NCBI RefSeq assembly: GCF_000801105.2
Contig: NC_079511.1
Location: forward strand, 22,529,792-22,593,791
DNA: 64,000 bases
Source of the DNA: Raphanus sativus
Taxonomy: Eukaryota; Streptophyta; Magnoliopsida; Brassicales; Brassicaceae
Direction of reading: 5' to 3'
Shown: positions 9,343 through 64,000 of the stretch, in pieces
Layout of the letters: each line of letters begins with the position of its first letter
Position numbering within the stretch: position 1 is the first letter of the stretch
Notes under the pieces: model-generated
The model's input: only the letters and a program-made list of their open reading frames with translations
Database searches by the model: none
What the model was told of the DNA's origin: nothing
Program-made: the position numbers and the translations under genes

Positions 9343-9650
9343 GTCGAGCTTAGTAACACAAGCTTGTGATCCAAGTGGAGACATTAAGATGATGGGACAT
9401 TGGCCAAATCTCTTTGGGCCGGGTTCGGTCAGGGCTAATTCTGGCCTGCCCATTCCAAGTCGGGAATTGAGGATATGGACTCGAGCGAAGGCTTGTGGTT
9501 TGGACCCTCTTAGAGCGGAGGAGACTGCGTGAGGCTGGTTTCACAGAGCAGCGTTCACCTCTCGCTTTCGACGGTGGAAGGATTACAGGCTGGTGCCTTC
9601 TGAGCCCACTATCACCCAATAGTTCGACTCTAATTGGACCATCATTTTTT
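9343..9650 (+). ncRNA. 7SL RNA (signal recognition particle RNA) gene
   Basis: The RNA scaffold of SRP pairs with SRP proteins and targets ribosomes to the ER. The 5' end (GTCGAGCTTAGTAACACAAG, TTGTGATCC, GGAGACATTAAGATGATGG) follows the plant 7SL Alu domain I remember. The 5' flank of the S domain (about 9396-9445) resembles the reverse complement of the 3' end (about 9595-9645), so a long helix 5 can form. The central block includes AGAGCAG and a GC-rich hairpin around CTCTCGCTTTCGACGGTGG. The total length of about 305 nt is right for 7SL, and it ends in six Ts (9645-9650). I cannot verify the helix 8 asymmetric-loop residues by eye. The 3' part is repeated three more times downstream. Confidence 0.75.
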
Positions 9651-9682
9651 ATTTAATGTTCCATCGCTTCGTGTGTGTTTTT

Positions 9683-9895
9683 ATTCTGGCCTGCCCATTC
9701 CAAGTCGGGAGTTGAGGATATGGACTCGAGCGAAGGCTTGTGGTTCAGACCCTCTTAGAGCGGAGGAGACTGCGTGAGGCTGGTTTCACAGAGCAGCGTT
9801 CACCTCCTGTTTTCAACGGTGGAAGGATTACGGGCTGGTGCCTTCCGAGTCCACTATGACCCAACAGTTCGACTCTAATCGGACCATCATTTTTT
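9683..9895 (+). pseudogene. Partial 7SL copy lacking the 5' Alu domain (copy b)
   Basis: From ATTCTGGCCTGCCC to the terminal T-run it parallels 9438-9650 with scattered substitutions. It has no Alu-domain half and no USE or TATA directly upstream. Confidence 0.85.
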
Positions 9896-9979
9896 GTTTA
9901 ATGTTCCATCGTTTCGTGTGTGGTTTGATTTTTTTTCCGGTGATGTTTATCTTCTAACTCTTATTATATTTGTTTGTTC

Positions 9980-10128
9980 GGACCCTCTTAGAGCAGAGGA
10001 GACTGCGTGAGGCTGGTTTCACAGAGCAGCGTTCACCTCCCGCTTTCGACGGTGGAAGGATTACAGGCTGGTGCCTTCTGAGCCCACTATGACCCAATAG
10101 TTCGACTCTAATCGGACCATCATTTTTT
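9980..10128 (+). pseudogene. Partial 7SL copy (copy c)
   Basis: Starts at GGACCCTCTTAGAGC, inside the S domain, and ends at the T-run 10123-10128. It is nearly identical to 9502-9650, differing for example at CCCGC versus CTCGC. It has no promoter of its own. Confidence 0.85.
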
Positions 10129-10160
10129 ATTTAATGTTCCATCGCTTCGTGTGTGTTTTT

Positions 10161-10373
10161 ATTCTGGCCTGCCCTTTCCAAGTTGGGAGTTGAGGATATG
10201 GACTCGAGCGAAGGCTTGTGGTTCAGACCCTCTTAGAGCGGAGGAGACTGTGTGAGGCTGGTTTCACAGAGCAGCGTTCACCTCCTGCTTTCAACGGTGG
10301 AAGGATTACGGGCTGGTGCCTTCCGAGTCCACTATGACCCAACAGTTCGACTCTAATCGGACCATCATTTTTT
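10161..10373 (+). pseudogene. Partial 7SL copy (copy d)
   Basis: Duplicate of copy b, from ATTCTGGCCTGCCC to the T-run 10368-10373, and lacking the Alu domain. It differs from copy b by a few substitutions only. Confidence 0.85.
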
Positions 10374-27661: not shown

Positions 27662-30065
27662 ATGCAAACATCAGCTGCGTCAGTGATAGTTTCGATAGCT
27701 ATAGCTGTTGTATCGTGGTGGATATGGAAAAATCTAAAGTGGGTTTGGTTTAAACCAAAGATGCTTGAAAGTTACCTGAGAAGACAGGGTATTGCCGGTA
27801 CTCCTTACACGCCACTTGTCGGAGATATAAAAAGGGATTATAGCACGTTAATGGAGGCAAGGTCCAAACCCATCAAAGTAACTGACGATATCATCCCACG
27901 TGTCTTGCCTTTTCCCTCGCACATGCTCAAGACTTACGGTATGTTTCTTGATCCTATCTGTTAAGATCTTAATATAGATAACGAGAACAAGAAAACTGTT
28001 GCTGAAGTGTATGAACCGGTATTATTAAGCCTTTGATAATGATTTTAAAGATTTATGATTAACACAAACGTGGATTTCATTTTAGAAAACCGATAAAACA
28101 CGTAGGCGAGATGATAATCTCTTTCCTTATATCTAAAATTGCACGTAATGTGACGACAACCGCCATTCAAGAAGCTTATGATACAGCCGTGACAAAATCT
28201 ACATATGTAATCTGTGAACTAATATGCCTTATTTTCAAAAAAAAATCTGTGAACTTTTTTTTTTCTGTGCTTAGAGAATATATTACCAAAAATATATTTG
28301 ATGGGCCGAAGGTTCTATACCGAGAACCACTAGCCAGGGCGGGTTGATGGCAGTAGCGCTCGTGTGGGTGACTCCATCACTCTACTGATACACATAGTAT
28401 ACTGAAGCCATTTGAACTTAAAATAATGAATTCACTCCTTTATACATTTGACAATAAAAATCATAATCTTCCAATGTAGATTTTTATAAGTTCTCATTTA
28501 CACTTGTCACTTCTTTGTATCTTGATGTTGCTGGAACAGGAAGGACTTTCTTTACATGGCTTGGACCTATACCAACCATTACCATCACGGATCCTGAGAA
28601 AATCAAGGAAGTGTTCAACAAAGTTTATGATTTCCCAAAGCCACATATATTCCCTTTGAGCAACCTTATAGTCAGTGGACTCTTCCGCTATGAAGGTGAT
28701 AAATGGGCAAAACACCGAAGAATCATTAATCCTGCTTTCCACCTTGAGAAGATCAAGGTTTTTGGCTTTATTTTTCCTAGTACAGAATCAGGTTTGCATG
28801 CTTTATGTATTTTATCTGACCCAAAATGTGACTTATGTTTCCATGTATAGAAAATGGTACCTGTGTTCCACCAGAGCTGCAGAGAGGTTATTGGCCAATG
28901 GGACAAGATAGTTTCCGAAAAAGGGTCATCCTGTGAGGTGGACGTTTGGCCTGGACTTATGAGTATAACAGAAGATGTGATCTCTCGTACTGCTTTTGGA
29001 AGCAGCTATAAAGAAGGACATAGGATATTTGAGCTACAAACAGAACTAGGACAGCTCATCATCCAAGCTGTTCGGAAATCTTACATCCCTGGATATAGGT
29101 AATGAAAACCTCAATCTCCTGGCCTGATTCTTGGTATTAGAACCACTGCAATCTATTAATAATGTTATTCCTTTTTTACCAAGATATCTCCCAACAAAGG
29201 ACAACCGAAGGATAAAAACAGTAGCCAGAGAAGCCCAAGTTATACTGAGAGGGCTCGTTAACAAAAGGTTAATGGCAAGGGAAGCTGGGGAAGCACCAAA
29301 CGAAGATTTATTAGGTATACTGCTTGAATCGAATTTAGGGCAAGCTAAAGGAGATGGAATGAGCATTGAGGATGTGATAGAGGAGTGCAAGCTGTTCTAC
29401 TTTGCCGGGCAAGAGACAACTTCAGTACTTCTAGTTTGGACAATGATTCTGCTAAGCCAACACCAAGATTGGCAGGCTCGTGCACGAGAAGAAGTTAAGC
29501 AAGTATTTGGTGATAAAGAACCTGATACAGAAGGCCTTAGCCATCTCAAAATTGTAAGTCAAAATCAAAACCTTCAAGTAACTATACTCTGGTTGTGTTT
29601 TAATGTTTTTTTTTTGCGGAATGATTTGACCTCTTTCAGATGACAATGATAATTAATGAGGTCCTTAGGCTATATCCTCCAGTAACTCATTTAAAACGAG
29701 CCATTCACAAAGAGATGAAGCTAGGCGACCTGACGCTACCAGGTGGCGTTCACATCAGTCTACCTATTATGCTAGTCCAACGCGATACCCAGCTATGGGG
29801 TAACGATGCAGCAGAGTTCAATCCTGAGAGATTCAAAGATGGTGTCTCAAAGGCAACAAAGAGCCAAGTCTCCTTCTTTCCCTTTGCTTGGGGACCAAGG
29901 ATCTGCATTGGCCAAAATTTTGCCTTATTAGAGGCAAAGATGGCAATGGCATTGATTTTACAGAGATTCTCCTTTGAGCTTTCTCCTTCCTATGTCCATG
30001 CTCCTTACACAGTATTCACCCTTCACCCAGAGTTTGGTGCTCATCTTATCCTGCAGAAGCTATAA
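27662..30065 (+). CDS. CYP72A: Cytochrome P450 of family CYP72A, copy 1, five exons
   Basis: ER-bound haem monooxygenase. Exons 27662-27938, 28540-28757, 28851-29098, 29184-29553 and 29640-30065 give 1539 nt, or 512 residues, the usual P450 length, without stops. An N-terminal membrane anchor (about residues 5-22) is followed by the CYP72-type region [20 protein letters not shown]. The I-helix oxygen motif AGQETT lies near 322-327, ExxR (EVLR) at 378-381, PERF near 433-436, and the haem loop [13 protein letters not shown] with Cys about 460. The gene closely matches the Arabidopsis CYP72A7-15 cluster on chromosome 3 (recall). CYP72A substrates in plants include terpenoids, gibberellins and secologanin-type compounds; the substrate here is unknown. 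Intron 1 is long (601 bp). A paralogue lies 7.8 kb downstream in the same orientation. Confidence 0.95.
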
Positions 30066-35418: not shown

Positions 35419-37703
35419 ATGCAAACATCAGCAGCTTCGTCAGTAATAGTTTCGGTAGCTCTAGCTGTTGTATTGTGGTGGATATGGAGAACTCTAAAGT
35501 GGATTTGGTTCAAACCAAAGATGCTTGAAAGTTACCTGAGAAGACAGGGTATTGCCGGAACGCCTTACACGCCACTTGTCGGAGACATGAGAAGAGACAA
35601 TAGCATGTCAAAGGAGGCAAGGTCCAAACCCATCAAACTAACGGATGATATCATTTCACGTGTATTGCCTTTCCCCTCGCAGATGCTCAAGACTTACGGT
35701 ATGTTTCTTGATTCCTATCTGTTAAGAACATAATATAAGCCTTTAGTCAAAAAAAAAGAAAGAACATAATAGAGATATAGAAAACAAGAAAACTATTACT
35801 GCAAAGCACGTGGGCCTGTTCAGCATTTCTAGGGATTCTAGTGCGAAAAGAAAATTAAATTAAACCTTTCAATTTTAATTAATTAAGTGATCACTAAATT
35901 TTTCTTCAAAAAAAGATGTGTAATATTTTGTAAATTTTATAACTAAAAAAGTTGATTTAAATATCGGATTCCATTCGACTCAAGGTTGGGAACTAATGAA
36001 TAATGATTGGTTATATTTACAAATTTACATAGAAATATTTTTGAGCCTTTTTAATTTAATATTTTTCTTTTTGGTATAGTAGTATATATACATACATAAA
36101 AATTGGGGACTGGGACAAGGTTTTGGGTCCCCGCGAGTACATGGTATACACAAAACGTGACATGTTTTGTATCTCTATGTGGGTGGAACAGGAAGGACTT
36201 TCTTTACATGGCGTGGCACTATACCAACCGTCACTATTACGAATCCTGAGCAAATCAAAGAAGTGTTCAACAAAGTTTATGATTTCCCAAAGCCACATAC
36301 ATTCCCTTTGAGCAACCTTGTAGTCAGTGGACTCTTCAGTTATGATGGTGATAAATGGGCAAAACACAGAAGAATCATCAACCCTGCTTTCCACCTTGAG
36401 AAGATCAAGGTTTTAGCATTATTTTTCCTGGTCTGGAGTTAGGTTTTATGTATTGTATGTGACTCAAAATGTGACTTATGTTTCTATGTATAGAATATGG
36501 TACCTGTATTCCATCAGAGCTGCAACGAGGTTGTTGACAAATGGGACAAGATAGTCTCGGACAAAGAGTCATCCTGTGAGGTGGACGTCTGGCCTGGGCT
36601 TATGAGTATAACAGAAGATGTGATCTCTCGTACTGCTTTTGGCAGCAGCTATAAAGATGGACAGAGGATATTTGAGCTCCAAACAGAACTAGCACAGCTC
36701 ATCATCCAAGCTTTTCGAAAATCTTACATCCCTGGATATAGGTAACGAAAAGCTCACTCTCCTGGCTTCAATCTTGGGTCTTAGAACCGATAAATCTATT
36801 AGGAGACATGAATAACATTTTTCTTTGTTCGTGAAGATATCTCCCAACAAAGGATAATAAAAGGATAAAAGCAGCAGCCAAAGAAACTCATGATATACTG
36901 AAAGGGCTCGTTAAAAAAAGGTTAAGGGCAAGAGAGGCTGGGGAAGCACCAAACGAAGATTTGTTAGGTATACTTCTTGAATCAAATTTAGGGCAAGCTA
37001 AGGGAAATGGAATGAGCATTGACGATGTGATAGAGGAGTGCAAGTTGTTCTACTTTGCTGGGCAAGAGACAACTTCAGTACTTTTAGTTTGGACAATGAT
37101 TCTGCTAAGCCAACACCAAGACTGGCAGGATCGTGCACGAGAAGAAGTGCAGCAAGTTTTTGGTGATAAAGAACCCAATATAGAAGGCCTTAACCATCTC
37201 AAAATTGTAAGTAAAAGCAAGTCTTAAATTTTTTTTATTCTTTTTTATTTTGGCTTGAATGATTTGACCTCTTGCAGATGACAATGATATTTAATGAGGT
37301 CCTTAGGCTATATCCTCCAGTAACTCAGCTGAGTCGAACCATTCACAAAGAGATGAAGCTAGGCGACCTGAAGCTACCAGGTGGTGTTCAGATCAATCTA
37401 CCTATTATGCTTCTCCAACGTGATACTCAGCTATGGGGGAACGATGCAGCAGAGTTCAAGCCGGAGAGATTCGAAGATGGTGTCTCAAAGGCAACAAAGA
37501 GCCAAGTCTCCTTCTTTCCCTTTGCTTGGGGACCAAGGATCTGTATTGGCCAAAATTTTGCCTTATTAGAGGCAAAGATGGCAATGGCATTGATTCTACA
37601 TAGATTCTCCTTTGAGCTTTCTCCTTCCTATGTTCATGCTCCTTACACAGTCTTCACCCTCCACCCACAGTATGGTGCTCATCTTATCCTCCACAAGCTA
37701 TAG
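35419..37703 (+). CDS. CYP72A: Cytochrome P450 of family CYP72A, copy 2, five exons
   Basis: Exons 35419-35698, 36192-36409, 36494-36741, 36837-37206 and 37278-37703 give 1542 nt, or 513 residues. Internal exon lengths equal those of copy 1 (218, 248, 370, 426). The one extra codon is in exon 1 (AASSV versus AASV). The key motifs are intact: AGQETT, EVLR, PERF and [13 protein letters not shown] with Cys about 461. Most differences from copy 1 are conservative and spread along the protein, for example [13 protein letters not shown] versus [13 protein letters not shown]. Intron 1 (493 bp) is unrelated in length to that of copy 1. It is probably an active paralogue with the same or a diverged substrate. 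Confidence 0.95.
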
Positions 37704-40914: not shown

Positions 40915-41737
40915 AGAGTTATTCTTGGGTTCACCCCCTAGGGTGAACCTTTAGGTTCACCAACCAATACAAACTTGTTATTTTAGATTGAGTATCTTTT
41001 AAAAAAGAGAAATACTTGGGTTCACCCCTAGAGTGAACCTTTAGGTTCACCCAGCCAATAGGATTTCGTTATTTCATATTCAGTATCTTTTGAAAAAGGA
41101 AACAAAATATTGTCAAGTTTTATTATGTTTTCAAAATAAAAAATAAATAGAAAATAATAGTAGTAGCAAAAAAAGATTTTATATTTAAAATACCGTCAAC
41201 AAAATACTAAATCCTAAACCCTAAATCATAAACCCTAAACCTATGGTAAACCCTTGGATAAATCCTAAATCTTTTGATTTTTTTTTTTAAATACACTTTT
41301 AACACAATCGGCAAAACACTAAACCCTAAATACTAAACCCTAAACCCTAAATACTAAACCCTAAACCCTTGGGTAAACTCTAAACCCTTGGATAAATCTT
41401 AAACTCTAGGATTTAGAATTTATCCAAGTGTTTTGGATTTACCAAGGGTTTTAGGTTTACCCAAGGGTTTATGATTTAGGATTTAGGGTTTACCCAAGGG
41501 TTTATGATTTAGGATTTAGGGTTTAGTGTTGGTTGACGGTATTAAAAATATATTTTTTAAACGTGTTTTTGTTTATTATTATTATTATTTATTTTTTTTA
41601 TTTTTATTTTAAAAATATAATAAAACTTGATAATATTTTGTTTCCTTTTTTAAAAGATACTGAATATGAAATAACGAAATCCTATTGGCTGGGTGAACCT
41701 AAAGGTTCACTCTAGGGTGAACCCAAGAATTTCTCTT
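40915..41737. mobile_element. Fold-back element with a telomere-like core
   Basis: The arm at about 41005-41150 (starting AAGAGAAATACTTGGGTTCA) is matched in reverse complement at about 41590-41737, ending at the assembly gap. The loop (about 41205-41525) consists of degenerate AAACCCTAAA repeats on one side and their complement TTTAGGGTTTA on the other, so it continues the palindrome. A second, partial copy of the arm (40920-40990) lies outside the left arm. Its partner may be in the gap. Non-coding. Confidence 0.75.
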
Positions 41738-41837
41738 NNNNNNNNNNNNNNNNNNNNNNNNNNNNNNNNNNNNNNNNNNNNNNNNNNNNNNNNNNNNNNN
41801 NNNNNNNNNNNNNNNNNNNNNNNNNNNNNNNNNNNNN
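41738..41837. other. Assembly gap (100 N)
   Basis: A run of exactly 100 N, usually a placeholder of unknown true length. It interrupts the right side of the fold-back element and is followed directly by a GA microsatellite. Confidence 1.
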
Positions 41838-44962: not shown

Positions 44963-46292
44963 GGAAAATTGGCAAAACAGAACAAAAATTCAGCATGGTT
45001 GTCCCTATAGTATAAAACTATCATTTAGTTATCACTTTAGTATAATTTTTTCATAATCACAAAACTAAACCTTGATTAATCTAATTAAACATATTAAAAT
45101 AATAGAATTTTTTAAAAATTAATTAAAAATGATTTAAAAAGGAAAAATAAAAAATAGAATTTGTAAAGTTTATAAAAAAAAATAATTTACAAACTTTTTA
45201 ATAAAAAACGTTAAATAAACTTATTAAAAAAATTTTACGAAGTTTTCTTTTATAAAAGTTTAAAACATTTTTAATAAAACTTTAATTAAATTAAATTTGT
45301 AAACTTTATAAAAATAAAAACAAAACTTTAAAGAAAAATTATAAAAAAACATTTTAACAAGTTTTATTTTTATAAAAATTTTAAAATGTTTGTAAACTTT
45401 TTAATTTTATCAAACTTTTTAATAAAAATAAAAATTTTAAAATGTTTTCTATAAAACTTTAATAAAAATAAAAAATTGTAAACTTTATAAAAATAAAAAT
45501 TTAAACTTTACAAAAAGTTGTACCTAATTTCCAAACACTACATGTTGCATAGATGTGCATCATAAAGGACAAGAGTTTGGAAAAAAAAATCAAAGTAACA
45601 ACTAAGGAGAAACCATAGATTGATGAAGAAGACAAGGGAGAATCATTTTTTAAAAAAAACATTTTCACAAGTAATATCGACAATAACACGTAGAATATTT
45701 TCTAAACTGAAATTTCATTAATTTTTGCAAAAAAAATCAGGTATTCTTATCCGCAGAATGTGTCTTCTAAAAGTTTAGAAGAATGATAAAAATCACGTAC
45801 ACACTTTCTACTTTGAGTAGACGTAAGAGTACATTGTCGAAAACACATTCTCCAAAATTTAGAATACTTTATAAAAGTAAAAGATGCATTCAGAAGGAAA
45901 ATAGATACCTTTACGATTAGTGGAATGTGCATTCCTTTTATTTAGAAATTTAGTAAATAGTAGAATGGGTGTTGTAAAGGAAGTAGATGGACATATTTAT
46001 TTTATAAATTTTTTTCTACTATAACAATTTTCGTTGAATACGCATTCTACTTTTAGTAGAACATATTTTAAAATTTTTATTTATCAAGTTTTTGAACAAA
46101 AAAATTTTACCAGCTTGTGTATATGTGTATTTTATTAATTTTTTTATATTTTTAATAATTTTTTTGATTCACAAAATTATTTATTTCATTAATTTTAAGA
46201 AATATAAGGGGTAAAAAAGAAAAAAATGGACAAAAATTATTTTATACCAAAGAGACAACAACCTTATTTTTGTCTCTTTTGGCAATTTTCCC
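44963..46292. mobile_element. Non-autonomous Mutator-like element, 1.33 kb
   Basis: Ends GGAAAATTGGCAAAA (44963) and TTTTGGCAATTTTCCC (to 46292) are inverted repeats of the type seen in Arabidopsis MULEs with short termini. They are flanked by AAAATATTA and AAAATATTT, an imperfect 9-bp target duplication, the size expected for Mutator. The interior is AT-rich with many TTTTAATAAAAATAAAA repeats and no transposase. Confidence 0.7.
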
Positions 46293-46301
46293 AAAATATT
46301 T

Positions 46302-47033
46302 AACACTCCACTACCTCAATTATTTGTATATGTCCACTATATCAAACAAATAAGCATTTTGTGTTATGCACATTACTATCAGACATTGATATAAACTCAT
46401 CATCTAGCATCTCTAAAACTAGCTGTCCATCAGCTATTCACATCTAACAAAGAAAAAAAAGTCAACATTGAAAGCACCTACGACAATATAGTTTCAAATT
46501 AAAAAATCTTATATCATGACAAATCTGATATTGAAATATATTAGATTCCTTATGTATGTTATTATTTTCATTAATAATATTCTTTTGGGTTTTCCTTTAT
46601 TAGAGATTCACTTTTTACTTACGATCATTGTGAGTTGATGAGATGTGAGTCTGTGATACTATCCATTATCAGTGTGTAACTCCTTTGAAAATGTAAGAAC
46701 ATAATATAATTTTTTGGTCAAATGAACATTATCTATTATGATATTTTTTTCACAAAGTAATATTATAAATATTATTCTGTAAATGGTTAATTTATTTATG
46801 CATAAGTTAAAAATTCACTTTTTACAATAATTTCAGGACCAGTAATGTAGAAAGTGAAATAAATCATATTTTACAAAATTTTGATAAATATCTTATTTTC
46901 TACGAAGGAAAAATATAAAATTTATATATCTACTATAAAATGTATATAAAAAATTAACTAATATTTAAATTATTGTATTTCAAACAGTTAATAAATAATA
47001 TTATAAAATTTCGGCGCGTAGAGTAGTTCAGAT
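46302..47033. other. AT-rich spacer before the ARABIDILLO-like locus
   Basis: No gene. The last 60 bases before 47034 are the only non-AT-rich part. Confidence 0.3.
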
Positions 47034-47333
47034 ATGAATCGTAAGGTGCGTCAGAGAGTTGATGAAGATGGTGAGGATATGAGTAGTAGTCAGAGAGTTG
47101 ATGAAGATGGTGAGGATATGAGTAGTAGGGTGTGTCAGAGAGTTGATGAAGAAGATAAGGATATGAATCATAGGGTGGTGCGTCAGAGAGTTGATGAAGA
47201 CGGTAAGGATAAAGTGGGTTCACCAAGCTATCTTCTGACTGGTGATGAGGTTATAGCACCAAAGATTCAAGAGTCTATGGATATGACTAGTTTGACTTAT
47301 GACGTAATGTTTCATGTGTTTACTCTATTGGAC

Positions 47334-47617
47334 AACCGCGACCGAGCTAGCTTAGCATCAACATGTGACTGTGGCTGCTCTCTCTTGGACATCCTCTTGC
47401 GTGTTTTGCATTAGCATGAGAAACACCTTAGCTCCATGGCTCTGCCAGAAACTGTTCGATCCTAGTAAGTTGTTGTCTGCCAAATGTAGAAGCGTACGAA
47501 AAAGGTTCCACTCAAGCCAAACCGGTTAAGTTAGGTAACTTCTCCCAGCTCTCAGCTGAAACTCTCCATTTAATGTTCGATGTCCCGGTGACATCAAGGT
47601 AGCAAAGATAAACCACT
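47334..47617 (+). repeat. Left arm of a long inverted repeat
   Basis: Pairs with 47775-48064: AGTGGTTT, TTTGCTACCTTG, GTCACCGGGACATC, TGGAGAGTT, GAGAGCTGGGAGAAG, AACTTAACCGGTTTG, GTGGAACC, GGATGTCCAAGAGAGCAGCC and GATGCTAAGCTA all occur in reverse complement. By eye more than 85% of bases pair over about 285 bp. Most of this arm is antisense to the ARABIDILLO-like leucine-rich region; its first 40 bases are F-box in sense. Confidence 0.9.
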
Positions 47618-47774
47618 TCTCCATGCCGCACAGGTAGATGCTAAGTTAGCTCGGTCGTGGTTGTCCAGTAGAGTAAACATGTGAAGCATCAGGTGGAGAA
47701 ACCTCACCTATTCTCCTTATCTGTGGAATTCCTTGGATCTTCGCGCTCACATGTTTGATCTTTCATCAGCAGCT

Positions 47775-48064
47775 TGGAGAAGTGGTTTCTCTTTGCTACC
47801 TTGCTGTCACCGGGACATCAAATATTAACTGGAGAGTTGCAACTGAGAGCTGGGAGAAGCTATCTAACTTAACCGGTTTGCCTTGAGTGGAACCTTTCTC
47901 GTACACTTCTACATTTGGCAGAAAACAACTTACTAGGATTGAACAGTTTCTAGCAGAGCCATGGAGGTAAGGTGTTTCTCATGCTAATGCAAATCACGCA
48001 AGAGGATGTCCAAGAGAGCAGCCACAATTACAGGTCGATGCTAAGCTATCTCGGTCGCGGTTAT
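47775..48064 (-). repeat. Right arm of the long inverted repeat
   Basis: Reverse complement of 47334-47617 with scattered mismatches. The 157-bp spacer (47618-47774) itself contains an antisense F-box piece (47638-47695) that can pair with 47308-47365, and a sense piece. Confidence 0.9.
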
Positions 48065-48157
48065 GAATTTCTTGAGCACTGCAACCAGAAACAAGACTCA
48101 ACAAACAGAGATAGCGAGAATGGTCGCTTGGTTATGAGACCAAAAACCATCGAATAG

Positions 48158-49289
48158 ATATGCAATAAAGGGACTTAGAGGACCAAAAACCATGTCATTT
48201 CTATTCAAATTCAATATCGAGTGATGATCAAAGCACGTTATTCAAGAAAAGATACAAGAAAACTGTTCTAAGATCATCAAAAACGAAAAAGAAATATATC
48301 AAAACACATTAAATAGTCACCTCTGGAACAAAAGAGAAGGACTTTATCTTCGTTTATTCTGAGTGACAGAAAAAGAATAAGGAAGACTCTGAGGACTGGG
48401 TAATGAAGGTGAAGAGAGAGAGAGAGACGAGAAGAGAGCTTATATAAGAGCAGATTGTATTTGTAAGAGATGTATCTATCACCTCCTTGGCACGATACAT
48501 TTATATATGCTCTACCAGTCAATACAATAACTCCACTTTTTCTTCTAAAAATTTAAAAGTATTATAAGATATTCATAGTATCTTTTTAATTAGTATTTTC
48601 ATTAATTTTGAAATGCATATCCATACACATTAATCTCTTTAGTGAATACATAGTATTTGTTATTAATTTTTGGGTTTTTTAAATGGTATATGTAGATTTG
48701 TTTATTGATTGTAGCTAAATTTTTAAATGTCAATGGATACACAATCTCTTTATATAAAATTTTTGGTATATAATTACTAGTTAGATTTTTATTAATTATG
48801 CTAATTATTTTTAACAGTAATAACGCATATGATAAGTAAGATATGAGAGACATGTGTCTTGCGCCTTTAGTAATTAAGATTTTTTTCACAATTAATTAAT
48901 GGTTTTTGATGTTTCTTAAACAATTTAAGACTACTAAATTTTTTTCTCTGAAAATGACAATAATCATAAACCATGAATGATAGACATGTGTTCTATATCA
49001 ATATGGGGGTTTCTTCTTTAATAGTTAAGACTTTATTCAAAAGATTGACTAGTAACTCATGTTTTAGAGAAACATCCAAAAAGATGTAACAAAGTAGAAA
49101 AAGAGACCAAAGTACTAAACTAAATCACATACCACACACATTCCTTTACGAGTAAGAAAAGAAAAAATACAAGAGAAAGAGACACCTCATTGGTTGCAAT
49201 TAATAACAAAACATTATTTTCCAACCTCTTAATTTCTGTTTAAGAGAATATAAACTAAAAAATAGGAACCTAAAAAATAGGAACCGATA
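48158..49289. other. Spacer
   Basis: GA tract at about 48413-48430. Minus-strand frames (48522-48277, 48889-48602) have no recognised domain. AT-rich towards the satellite array. Confidence 0.3.
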
Positions 49290-50870
49290 TTGTTCGTTAT
49301 GAATTGAAATAAGAATTTATATTATGATTTATAAAATTAAGGAAAATTTACTGATTTTCAAATCTATTATATTAGTTTAACTAATGTTTACAAATCGGAA
49401 GATTTATCTCGAATTTAAGTGTTTATACTTTTAACTTATTAGTCAATTCAAATCAACTGAAATCAAATTTATTAACAAATATGTATGACTAATACTTAAT
49501 TAATTTATGACTAATTCTTGATTTGAATTAAATTTTATAAATTGTAGACCAAATAAAACCATTTTAAATCTATTTATGTTCGTTTTAATTAATGTTTACA
49601 ATCCAAAGATTTATTTCGAATTTGAGTATTTATATTTTAAACTTGGTAGTTAATTCAAATGTATTGATATCAAATTTATTAACAAATTAGTATGATTAAT
49701 ACTAGATTTATAACTAATTGTTTATTTGAATTAAAAAATTTAAATCGTAAAACAAATAAAACCATTTTAAAATCTATTATGTTGTGTTTAATTAATATTT
49801 ACAGTCTGGGGATTTTATTTTGAATCTGAGTATTTATGTTTTAAACTTAGTAGTCAATTCAAATCTATTGAAATCAAATTTATTAACAATTCTCTATGAC
49901 TAATACTTGATTTATGACTAATTCTTGATTTGAACTAAATTTTATAAATCGTAGACCAAATAAAACCATTTAAATCTATTTGTGTTCGTTTTAATTAATG
50001 TTTACGATCCAAAGATTTTATTTCGAATTTGAGTATTTATATTTTAAACTTGGTAGTCAATTCAAATGTCTTGAAATCAAATGTATCAACAAATCTGTAT
50101 GACTAATACTTAATGTATGCCAAATTCTTGATTTGAATTAAATTTTGTCAACCGTAAATAAATAACACCATTAAATCTATTATGTTGGTTTTAAATAATG
50201 TTTACAATCCAGAGGTTTTATTTCAAATTTGAGTATTTATATTTTAAATTTATTAGTTAATTAAAATCTATTGAAATCGAACTTATTAACAATCCGTAAG
50301 ACTAATCCTTGATTTATGAAAAATCTTGATTTGAATTAAATTTTGTAAATCGTAAAAAAAATAACACCATTTTAAATATATTATGTTGGTTTTAATTAAT
50401 GTTTACATTCAGAGATTTTGTTTCGAAATTGACTATTTATATTTTGAACTTAGTAGTCAATTCAAATCTATTGAAATCAAATTTATTAGTAAATTTATAT
50501 GCCTAATACTTGATTATGACTAATTCTTGATTTGGATTAATTTTTTTAAATCGTAAAACTAATAACACCATTTTCAAATCTATTATGTTTATATTAGTTA
50601 TTTTTGTACAATCCATAGATTTGATTTCAAATTTGAGTACTTATATTTTAAACTTAGTAGTCGACTGAAATCAAATTTATAAAAAAATCTATATGACTAA
50701 TACTTGATTTATGACTAAATATTTATTTGAATTAAAAAAATTATATCGTAAAACAAATAACAAAATTTTTAAATCTAATATGTTTGTTTTAATTGATGTT
50801 TACAATCCGGAGATTTTATTTCGAATTTGAGTATTTATCAAATTTATTAACAAATCCGTATGACTATTCT
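49290..50870. repeat. Tandem satellite, about eight units of roughly 205 bp
   Basis: The anchor TTAATTAATGTTTACAATCC recurs near 49386, 49593, 49797, 50000, 50200, 50401, 50604 and 50798, a period of 194-207. Each unit runs through ATTTATTTCGAATTTGAGTA, TTTTAAACTTAGTAGTCAA, TTGAAATCAAATTTATTAAC, ATGACTAATACTTGATTTA, CTTGATTTGAATTAAATTTT and AAACCATTTTAAATCTATT. Units diverge by perhaps 10-20%. It is non-coding and very AT-rich; the unit is unknown to me. Confidence 0.9.
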
Positions 50871-61622: not shown

Positions 61623-64000
61623 TTAGAGGTTGTCGAAAACTTGTTTGAAAACCACATTCATAGTTTTCTTCTGGGGATTACCATCTTTGTCTAAAATCAA
61701 AATCTTCAAACCTTTTTTTGAAGTCACTCTAGAAACAGCAACATATAGCTGCCCATGTGAAAAAACAGGTCTAGGTAGATAGAGACCAACTTCAGATAGA
61801 GATTGACCTTGACTTTTGTTAATCGTCATTGCAAAAGCAACAGCAAGAGGCAGCTGCCTTCTCCGCATTTTAAAAGGCAATCTCGTGTCTGATGGAGTTA
61901 TCAACAATCTAGGAATATCAACAATTTCCCCAACTCTTTCTCCTGTTATAATTCTGGCTTGAACCATAAAGTCCATGAGCTGAGTGATCTGAAGTCTAGT
62001 CCCATTCATCAAGCCATCAATAGGTGTTATGTTTCTCAGTACCATAACCGGACAACCAACCTTTAGTCTAAGACTATGGTTTGGTAGACCAGGAACTTTA
62101 ATGGTGTTTAGAAAATCAGGACCAAGAGCTTCGTTGTTTACAGAACCTGTATCCGAAGGATCTATGCTATCAGCCGAGTTATAAATTTTTTCCTCACCTG
62201 AAACAGAAAACATATATTAGTTGAGAAGCAATCAAACATAAATAAGGCAGAAACAAAAAAAAAATACCTTGTAGCTTATCCAACATAAATTCATTAACTA
62301 CATTGACATCCTCGTTAGTTGGACAAAGGATAGCTCTCTCTTGAAAAAACTTCGCCTCTTTGTTTTCATGCAATGAATTTGAATCACCATAAATAGCTCT
62401 GCTGATGGCTTCTATAGGATCGTTGGAATCAGTAATCAAAAATTCCTCGGGGATATCAATCTCTGCTTGACCATCATTAGGTTCAGAAAGTTTACCATCA
62501 CCGACTTTTAATATCCACTCCGAGAAGTCCTTGAGTTCCTTTGCCTCTTCTACTGACAATCCACCCGACATCAATCTCATATTTTTAGTCAGCTTCAGCA
62601 CTTTGCAATGCTCCCAAAGATAAGATGAGTTCAGTGCAGACATCACAATCTCAGCTCTTCCAGCTCCATTTATAACAGGCAAAACCCGTCTAAAATCACC
62701 TCCAAAAACAATGACCTTTCCACCAAATGGCTGTTTGTCGTGCTTTCCAACAATATCAGATAAACTTCTATCCAGAGCTTCAAAACAATGTATGCTCATC
62801 ATTGGAGCTTCATCCCATATAATAAGTGATGCCGCTTTCACTAAATCCGATTGGTCTGTTTCATGTCTCATGGTACATGAAGAAAACTCGTCTGGATTTA
62901 GAGGAATAGAAAATCTGGAATGAGCTGTCCGACCCCCTGGTAACAACAATGACGCAATTCCACTTGAGGCCACGTTTAGAACAATCTCTCCTCGAGATCT
63001 GATAGCTGCAGAGAGTAACTTCCAGAGAAAAGTTTTCCCAGTTCCTCCAAAACCGCTCACAAAAAACATACCACCATCTGCTTCATTCACAGCCGCAAGA
63101 ATCTGATCATATATTTTCCTTTGCTCCAAAGTCATCTTCGGAATATCTCTATCAAGAGTTTCTAACAAAGTAGAGCGGCAATAGCTGCGTTCTTCCAATA
63201 CCAGGACGTTGGAATCATGACTACTTGTCTTAGGTGGCTTAGGCATAGTGGTAAATCTTTCTAATGAAGTACCATTGCGTCTTAGGAGTGATTCAATCTC
63301 TAGCAAAGCATACTTCTTTTTCTCGTCATCACTCAGCATTAGACCTACAAAGAAAAAAAAATGTCAGAATGAGAATATAGAACCCTGCGCCTAGGAATGT
63401 CATGTTGTACACGTGAGGATATCGTCACCAAGTTTACTACTAACCTGGTCTGTTGAAATTTTTCCTCATGTTGTGCTCAATATCTTCAGACAATAACTCC
63501 CAAGTGCTTTCCCAGACAGTCTCCGGCGCAGATAAAGTGTTATTCATAAGCATCATGACAAACACTTTCCGTAGCTCTCTTGCTGTGCTCTCGTAAGATC
63601 TCCTTACTATGTCATCAATGTACTCCTGATCATCATCTAGTAACCCACGGGCATAACATGCTTCTTTGTAGCCTGGATAAAGAACACCTTCATAAGTTTT
63701 GATGTCTTCATAACTGGTGGGTCCTCTCACAACATTCAAAAGTACACGCAAGAAGTAAGCATCTTCCTGGGTCCGTGGAGCATAATTAATTCTCCCAAGA
63801 GCAAAACCTCGTTTCCGTCTTTTCCACATCTTTGATTTCTTATCGTAGATAAAGAAGTTAGGAATCTGGGCGTAGGTCAATGTTTTTGCAAGGGAGTCAA
63901 TTTTACATAACTCAAACCAAGCCAAGAACATTGTATTTTTAATGAGCTTCCGACTGATGACTGCTTTCAGTTTATCCTTTCCTCTGAAAGTAACAACTTG
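61623..64000 (-). CDS. Helitron PIF1-like DNA helicase (partial at the window edge), three exons seen
   Basis: This is the helicase domain of a Helitron Rep-Hel protein, a superfamily 1B 5'-3' helicase that unwinds DNA during rolling-circle transposition. On the minus strand the exons are 64000-63445 (open to the edge), 63344-62268 and 62197-61623, with GT-AG introns of 100 and 70 bp, both in phase 1. Exon 1 contains the Helitron-specific region before the helicase (ending MRKNFNRPG). Exon 2 has Walker A GFGGTGKT (about 63054-63031), [12 protein letters not shown], Walker B IIWDEAPM (about 62820) and [11 protein letters not shown]. Exon 3 has [11 protein letters not shown] and [17 protein letters not shown] and ends at TAG or TAA near 61623. 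There is no stop or frameshift in 734 codons, suggesting recent activity. The Rep domain is not in view. Confidence 0.9.

Follow-up and report, generated by a model that had tools for sequence, protein, structure and literature searches.

A chimeric inverted duplication of ARABIDILLO 2-like gene fragments in radish and its possible small-RNA output

When fragments of a protein-coding gene come to lie in opposite orientations within one short locus, is the outcome a source of small RNAs or only debris? The question is raised by a locus at 47034-48157 of the 64,000-nucleotide stretch of radish (Raphanus sativus) DNA on C1 that we analysed, here called the window. We are very nearly certain of its structure and origin: fragments from a fast-evolving ARABIDILLO 2-like F-box gene make up a convergent, chimeric inverted duplication.

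On the + strand its pieces run in the order N-terminus and F-box start in sense (47034-47367), L1 antisense, F2 antisense, SP sense, L2 sense and F3 antisense. The locus opens with a short + strand ORF of 126 aa (47034-47414; CDCGCSLLDILLRVLH) in which N-terminal tandem repeats and the start of an F-box are followed by an antisense-derived tail; its N-terminus is ARABIDILLO-like and holds about four tandem units of 39-48 nt. F1 (47302-47367) is a sense F-box piece on the + strand, and L1 (47368-47629) is near-armadillo and leucine-rich sequence whose coding sense is on the minus strand. F2 (47629-47694, minus strand) is an F-box piece in the loop that is able to pair with F1, and SP (47695-47768, + strand; WRNLTYSPYLWNSLDLRAHMFDLSSAA) is a loop piece of post-F-box sequence in sense, missing from the mini-gene copies. 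L2 is a leucine-rich plus near-armadillo block in sense on the + strand, and F3 (48030-48062, minus strand) is an F-box piece adjoining antisense near-armadillo sequence, a repetition of the abnormal junction of the left arm. The near-armadillo sequence in the arms presumably lies at or just before the armadillo repeats, given the domain boundary that we assume. Compared with an intact ARABIDILLO gene, the locus carries pieces in both orientations, its matches stop near residue 400 of about 920, and its ORF reaches only 126 aa. On the minus strand F2 runs into L1 (47694 to 47370) as a collinear mini-gene, which has a collinear relative at C5 in an annotated 154-aa radish F-box protein, P0122; there too the F-box is joined directly to leucine-rich sequence.

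The left arm of the inverted repeat (47334-47629) and the right arm (47769-48062) align over 294 positions at 91.8% identity, with 24 differences and one 2-nt gap, and enclose a loop of 139 nt within a foldback that spans 729 nt in total. They form the top-ranking of the three inverted pairs found in the window at E<=1e-20 (E 8e-116). When 47290-48080 is folded it reaches -531.5 kcal/mol against a shuffle mean of -223.1 (z -34.45), a value equalled by none of 20 shuffles, and in the folded minus-strand RNA 48420-47290 pairing with the left arm takes in 279 of the 294 right-arm bases. Of the 276 left-arm 21-mers, only 10 have a perfect mirror image in the right arm. The fold is extended by a nested F-box palindrome (47302-47367 with 47629-47694; 66 nt, 85%). 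These results bear out the first-pass annotation in its main structural claims, namely an inverted duplication with a long foldback, the nested palindrome, and an ARABIDILLO-like origin; the gene from which the arms derive is ARABIDILLO 2-like. The right arm that it placed at 47775-48064 is present but lies a few bases away, and the leucine-rich sequence that it named as the content of the arms is there, but each arm also includes an F-box piece (about 33 nt) and a near-armadillo piece. The 25 longest of the 35 inverted pairs of at least 25 nt in 45000-50000, which we looked at as possible terminal inverted repeats of a MITE or foldback element, are outside the arms AT-rich pairs only (70-87%).

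We give next to no chance to the possibility that a false fold-back join in the assembly created the inverted repeat. The assembly does hold redundant contigs (C528, C1585 and C399, for instance, match C3 at 99.6-100%), but a false join is expected to leave near-identical arms, whereas these differ at 24 of 294 sites (8%). The window has a single run of N, at 41738-41837, and the chimeric junction recurs on other contigs with diverged sequence.

A genome search with the 1124-bp locus returned at least 82 matches on 13 contigs, and near-identical contigs were merged before family members were listed. Three divergent paralogues are full-length (C5:27.117 Mb, C5:27.266 Mb with its copy C4377, and C8:24.567 Mb) and have an open first exon of 494-506 aa; C908/C263 and C2515 are pseudogenes that carry stops. 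Canonical ARABIDILLO 2 lies at C4:51.49 Mb, and the gene at C4:42.80 Mb is presumed to be ARABIDILLO 1, going by the name that protein P0081 of the same contig bears. We did not count as further loci the three C3 copies named above, nor C4377, which is 99.4-100% like C5:27.266 Mb, and C908 and C263 (99.4% alike) were rejected as two loci.

The assembly contains three chimeric inverted-repeat loci: the one in the window, one at C5:27.258 Mb and one at C3:6.640 Mb. The latter two (L010 3612-5442 and L015 3522-5307) are convergent with the family promoter upstream, and the C5 locus encodes P0122. Independent origins of these two were rejected, as they share about 4.6 kb at 89-93% and their arms are 95.5-96.1% alike; being duplicates, they stand with the window for at least two hairpin architectures. 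Their own arms consist of leader, N-terminus and F-box and are 82.7% and 84.8% identical. The C5 locus folds to -645.8 kcal/mol (1352 nt) and the C3 locus to -643.8 kcal/mol (1321 nt), values given without shuffles, as compared with -412.5 kcal/mol in one gene stretch (1353 nt) and -455.7 kcal/mol in another (1352 nt). The abnormal junction between F-box and antisense near-armadillo sequence occurs twice in the window and also in C5 and C3, and the two leucine-rich/near-armadillo blocks of the window group with the C5 and C3 blocks in a tree of 10 sequences (support 0.92). A remnant at C6:39.977 Mb (L014 3571-5866), also a product of convergent rearrangement, joins N-terminal repeats to a leader and promoter in reversed orientation; there the promoter is 88% identical to that of the window, and a 2.1-kb stretch including the promoter is 83% identical.

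In a protein tree of 28 sequences picked from the listed matches, the divergent paralogues form one clade (support 1.00) that has ARABIDILLO 2 from the same tribe as its sister group, and the clade members come only from Raphanus, Brassica, Sinapis and Eruca. We take the tribe of these genera to be Brassiceae, and the clade appears confined to it among the matches listed, the best 120 of 558 from a limited candidate set, so that it may occur more widely. Root-to-tip distances are 0.62-0.82 in the divergent clade vs 0.28-0.31 for ARABIDILLO 2 of the same tribe, and first-exon dN/dS is 0.51-0.56 among the radish divergent members and 0.33-0.34 against ARABIDILLO 2. Brassica carinata contributes several copies to the full-length clade proteins (P0124-P0137). 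In Arabidopsis, ARABIDILLO proteins promote the development of lateral roots (PMC4286813), and because of this role a fast-evolving sister clade of ARABIDILLO 2 merits study. Among the titles and abstract openings found in the literature on ARABIDILLO and on radish inverted repeats, hairpins or siRNA, none describes the locus.

Could such a locus be transcribed? The first-pass annotation had taken the intact N-terminal frame as a sign of an inherited promoter, a suggestion that finds no support on the left side: the left flank (46400-47033) has no match at E<=1e-3 among the 13 other loci compared (14 loci with itself), and the family promoter lies on the right side, on the minus strand. Read on the minus strand, the right flank (48063-48700) aligns with the region that precedes the N-terminus in full-length genes, and with its counterparts at canonical ARABIDILLO 2, C5 and C3. 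The minus-strand segment 48331-48460 corresponds to the promoter of ARABIDILLO 2-like genes together with their 5'UTR exon, with the TATA element CTTATATAAG at 48439-48448, and 48063-48330 corresponds to their 5' leader, with the start of the leader intron after the donor AG/GTGACT. This leader is truncated: by alignment it ends before the family N-terminus and before the usual acceptor. Across nine chosen loci aligned over promoter and leader, the splice donor AG/GT is kept in all nine and the TATA element is exact in six; C6, C2515 and canonical ARABIDILLO 2 differ from it by one or two changes. Upstream of the minus-strand promoter lies a 203-bp satellite of 7.4 copies (49354-50838), and related sequence occurs near the C5, C3 and C6 loci. 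The locus has kept a family promoter and leader on its right side, and their minus-strand direction leads into the hairpin. Because TATA, leader and donor are all on the minus strand of the right flank and the left flank is unmatched, a minus-strand transcript would be the better-supported route.

The description of the locus as young is doubtful, as the arms differ by 8%, little below their divergence from C5 and C3 (9-12%). Arm divergence (K 0.086) corresponds to about 3-6 million years at assumed substitution rates of 1.5e-8 and 7e-9. Because the window blocks are 92.6% identical to each other and 88-91% identical to the C5/C3 blocks, the inverted repeat is not a great deal younger than the split from C5/C3. 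Strong gene conversion between the arms is unsupported: with derived states in the leucine-rich/near-armadillo block polarised by the majority of five relatives, the 19 block differences comprise 11 derived on the left, 7 on the right and 1 unclear. The tree node that conflicts with the arms being each other's closest relatives has a support of only 0.23, and there are 2 shared derived sites. Two separate fragments may have been joined, instead of one local inverted duplication.

If the stem were processed, which genes would its products match? We compared the 276 left-arm and 274 right-arm 21-mers with both strands of genes. In the divergent paralogues L009, L011 and L012, exact matches number 1, 1 and 1 for the left arm and 6, 16 and 9 for the right; at up to 2 mismatches they rise to 65, 91 and 77 for the left arm and 119, 98 and 115 for the right. 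Neither arm has an exact 21-mer match to ARABIDILLO 1 or 2. With up to 2 mismatches, ARABIDILLO 2 is matched by 27/276 left-arm and 21/274 right-arm 21-mers, and ARABIDILLO 1 by 5 from the left arm and 0 from the right. At up to 4 mismatches, 246 21-mers of the real left arm match L009 and 106 match ARABIDILLO 2, against 0-1 and 0, respectively, for five shuffled left arms. As targets, which the first-pass annotation sought among the functional ARABIDILLO paralogues, the intact divergent ARABIDILLO 2-like paralogues therefore fit better than canonical ARABIDILLO 1 and 2.

Neither test for selection on pairing returned a signal. Wobble-preserving changes are not in excess among the 13 inter-arm transitions (4/13 keep wobble on the + strand RNA and 9/13 on the minus strand; p 0.27). 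When the hairpins of C5 and C3 are compared, their 376 paired sites show no compensatory double change, where just 0.1 is expected and power is little. Methylation decay was set aside as an account of the inter-arm transitions, which divide into 5 CG, 3 CHG and 5 CHH with no clear bias by count, without a formal test. Between the window and C5, the chimeric ORF has dN 0.059, dS 0.197 and w 0.30 over 97 codons (Fisher p 0.007, with site numbers back-calculated from the dN/dS values); other comparisons of the N-terminal region put w at 0.42-0.78 when the window copy is used and at 0.51-0.83 with the C5 mini-gene. The value of 0.30 hints that a protein may have been constrained at some time, and it counts against a pure RNA reading, which does not predict such constraint. 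It lends weight to a chimera in which the N-terminus and partial F-box ORF would make a short protein that may compete with full-length F-box relatives, the inverted repeat being incidental; the C5 ORF of 97 aa has an antisense-derived tail similar to that of the window and is preceded by the family promoter. We nevertheless judge this decidedly unlikely, since the window ORF has no family promoter upstream, its F-box match falls under the Pfam cut-off (14 vs 20.5 bits), the C3 copy is broken at 55 aa, and gene conversion from intact relatives could mimic constraint.

The reading that we favour, tentatively and at a little short of an even chance, is a natural inverted-repeat or proto-miRNA-like locus with an inherited promoter that would make siRNAs against ARABIDILLO 2-like paralogues; we infer both its expression and its silencing activity. 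An inverted repeat forms a long hairpin here and the arms are similar to a gene family, as in natural inverted-repeat siRNA loci, and the earlier suggestion of a small-RNA source is plausible. The minus-strand promoter would produce an RNA with an imperfect stem of about 295 bp, a predicted substrate for several Dicer-like enzymes whose products, as in proto-miRNA or natural inverted-repeat loci, would be a mixture of 21-24 nt siRNAs. Their main targets would be the locus itself and the ARABIDILLO 2-like paralogues that match it closely, whereas canonical ARABIDILLO 2 and 1 would be affected only weakly. That siRNAs are made in some tissue we hold to be possible, at rather less than an even chance, and that they measurably lower a paralogue is unlikely. 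Nearly as likely as an inverted-repeat siRNA locus is inert debris, a decaying pseudogene cluster of rearranged ARABIDILLO 2-like copies that is untranscribed or silenced and functionless. The many broken family copies (the stops in C908, C263 and C2515, and C6 as a remnant), the break in the C3 chimeric ORF and the lack of any sign of pairing-preserving changes suit that account; it sits less well with a minus strand that still carries the TATA element, the 5'UTR and the splice donor, with a stem still 92% identical, and with C5 and C3 both still folding back despite 4-5% arm divergence from each other. That the locus is a genuine young MIRNA gene, from which a single precise miRNA against ARABIDILLO genes would be released, is extremely improbable. 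Coding sequence duplicated in inverted orientation has given rise to such genes, as documented for 16 Arabidopsis MIRNA loci (PMC1790633), but a long near-perfect stem favours mixed siRNAs and an Rfam search of 46900-48700 gave no family match at E<=1. We do not file the locus as MIRNA because its 729 nt foldback exceeds the 300-nt plant limit that is quoted as a warning in PMC12594335.

Comparison with known systems places the inverted-repeat siRNA reading in context. Natural inverted-repeat siRNA or proto-miRNA loci, including the Arabidopsis halleri S-locus sRNA precursors (PMC13128112), likewise have long-hairpin repeats that match a multi-member gene family, and FOLT1/FOLT2 silencing in Arabidopsis (PMC5257005) likewise involves a rearranged locus with truncated gene copies, accompanied there by small RNAs and the silencing of a paralogue elsewhere. 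Heterogeneous small RNAs and a lowered target transcript were shown for the former, and methylation and incompatibility were measured for the latter, whereas the radish locus is known from sequence alone; for TAD3 itself, PMC5257005 states that RNA-directed DNA methylation is not a key factor. The young MIRNA genes of PMC1790633 also have arms that resemble protein-coding genes, and some juxtapose two related duplicates, but the radish foldback differs in its length and in having no known precise miRNA. A possible parallel is offered by the hpRNAs of Drosophila simulans that act on the Dox-family meiotic drivers (PMC10292708 and PMC10317233), hairpin loci directed at an evolutionarily new gene family, although animal RNAi and meiotic drive operate there. 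By analogy, the Brassiceae ARABIDILLO 2-like clade would be selfish, harmful in dosage or engaged in an arms race, and the genome would have made promoter-bearing hairpins of at least two architectures from the clade's own copies to silence it, a plant counterpart of the fly hpRNA/driver system. We consider this very improbable; against it, the C5 and C3 stems show no compensatory evolution. If the radish loci are transcribed, they would be a case of a crop plant that turns a single fast-evolving F-box/armadillo clade into self-silencing hairpins of more than one form. With arm divergence of 8% in the window vs 15-17% in C5 and C3, the passage of a gene fragment into regulatory small RNA could then be followed. 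If silent, the locus documents how convergent gene fragments gather by rearrangement.

The window has other features of its own. A second long inverted repeat at 41005-41737 (arms 41005-41271 and 41473-41737, 83%) has AAACCCTAA-like repeats inside, looks like a MITE-type element, and ends at the assembly gap 41738-41837. Minus-strand ORFs at 61623-63931 resemble what we take to be a Pif1-like Helitron helicase. At 9343-10337 a plant SRP RNA gene is followed on the same strand by two partial matches to the SRP RNA family, and 27662-30065 and 35419-37703 hold ORFs of two similar cytochrome P450-like genes, presumably CYP72A-like.
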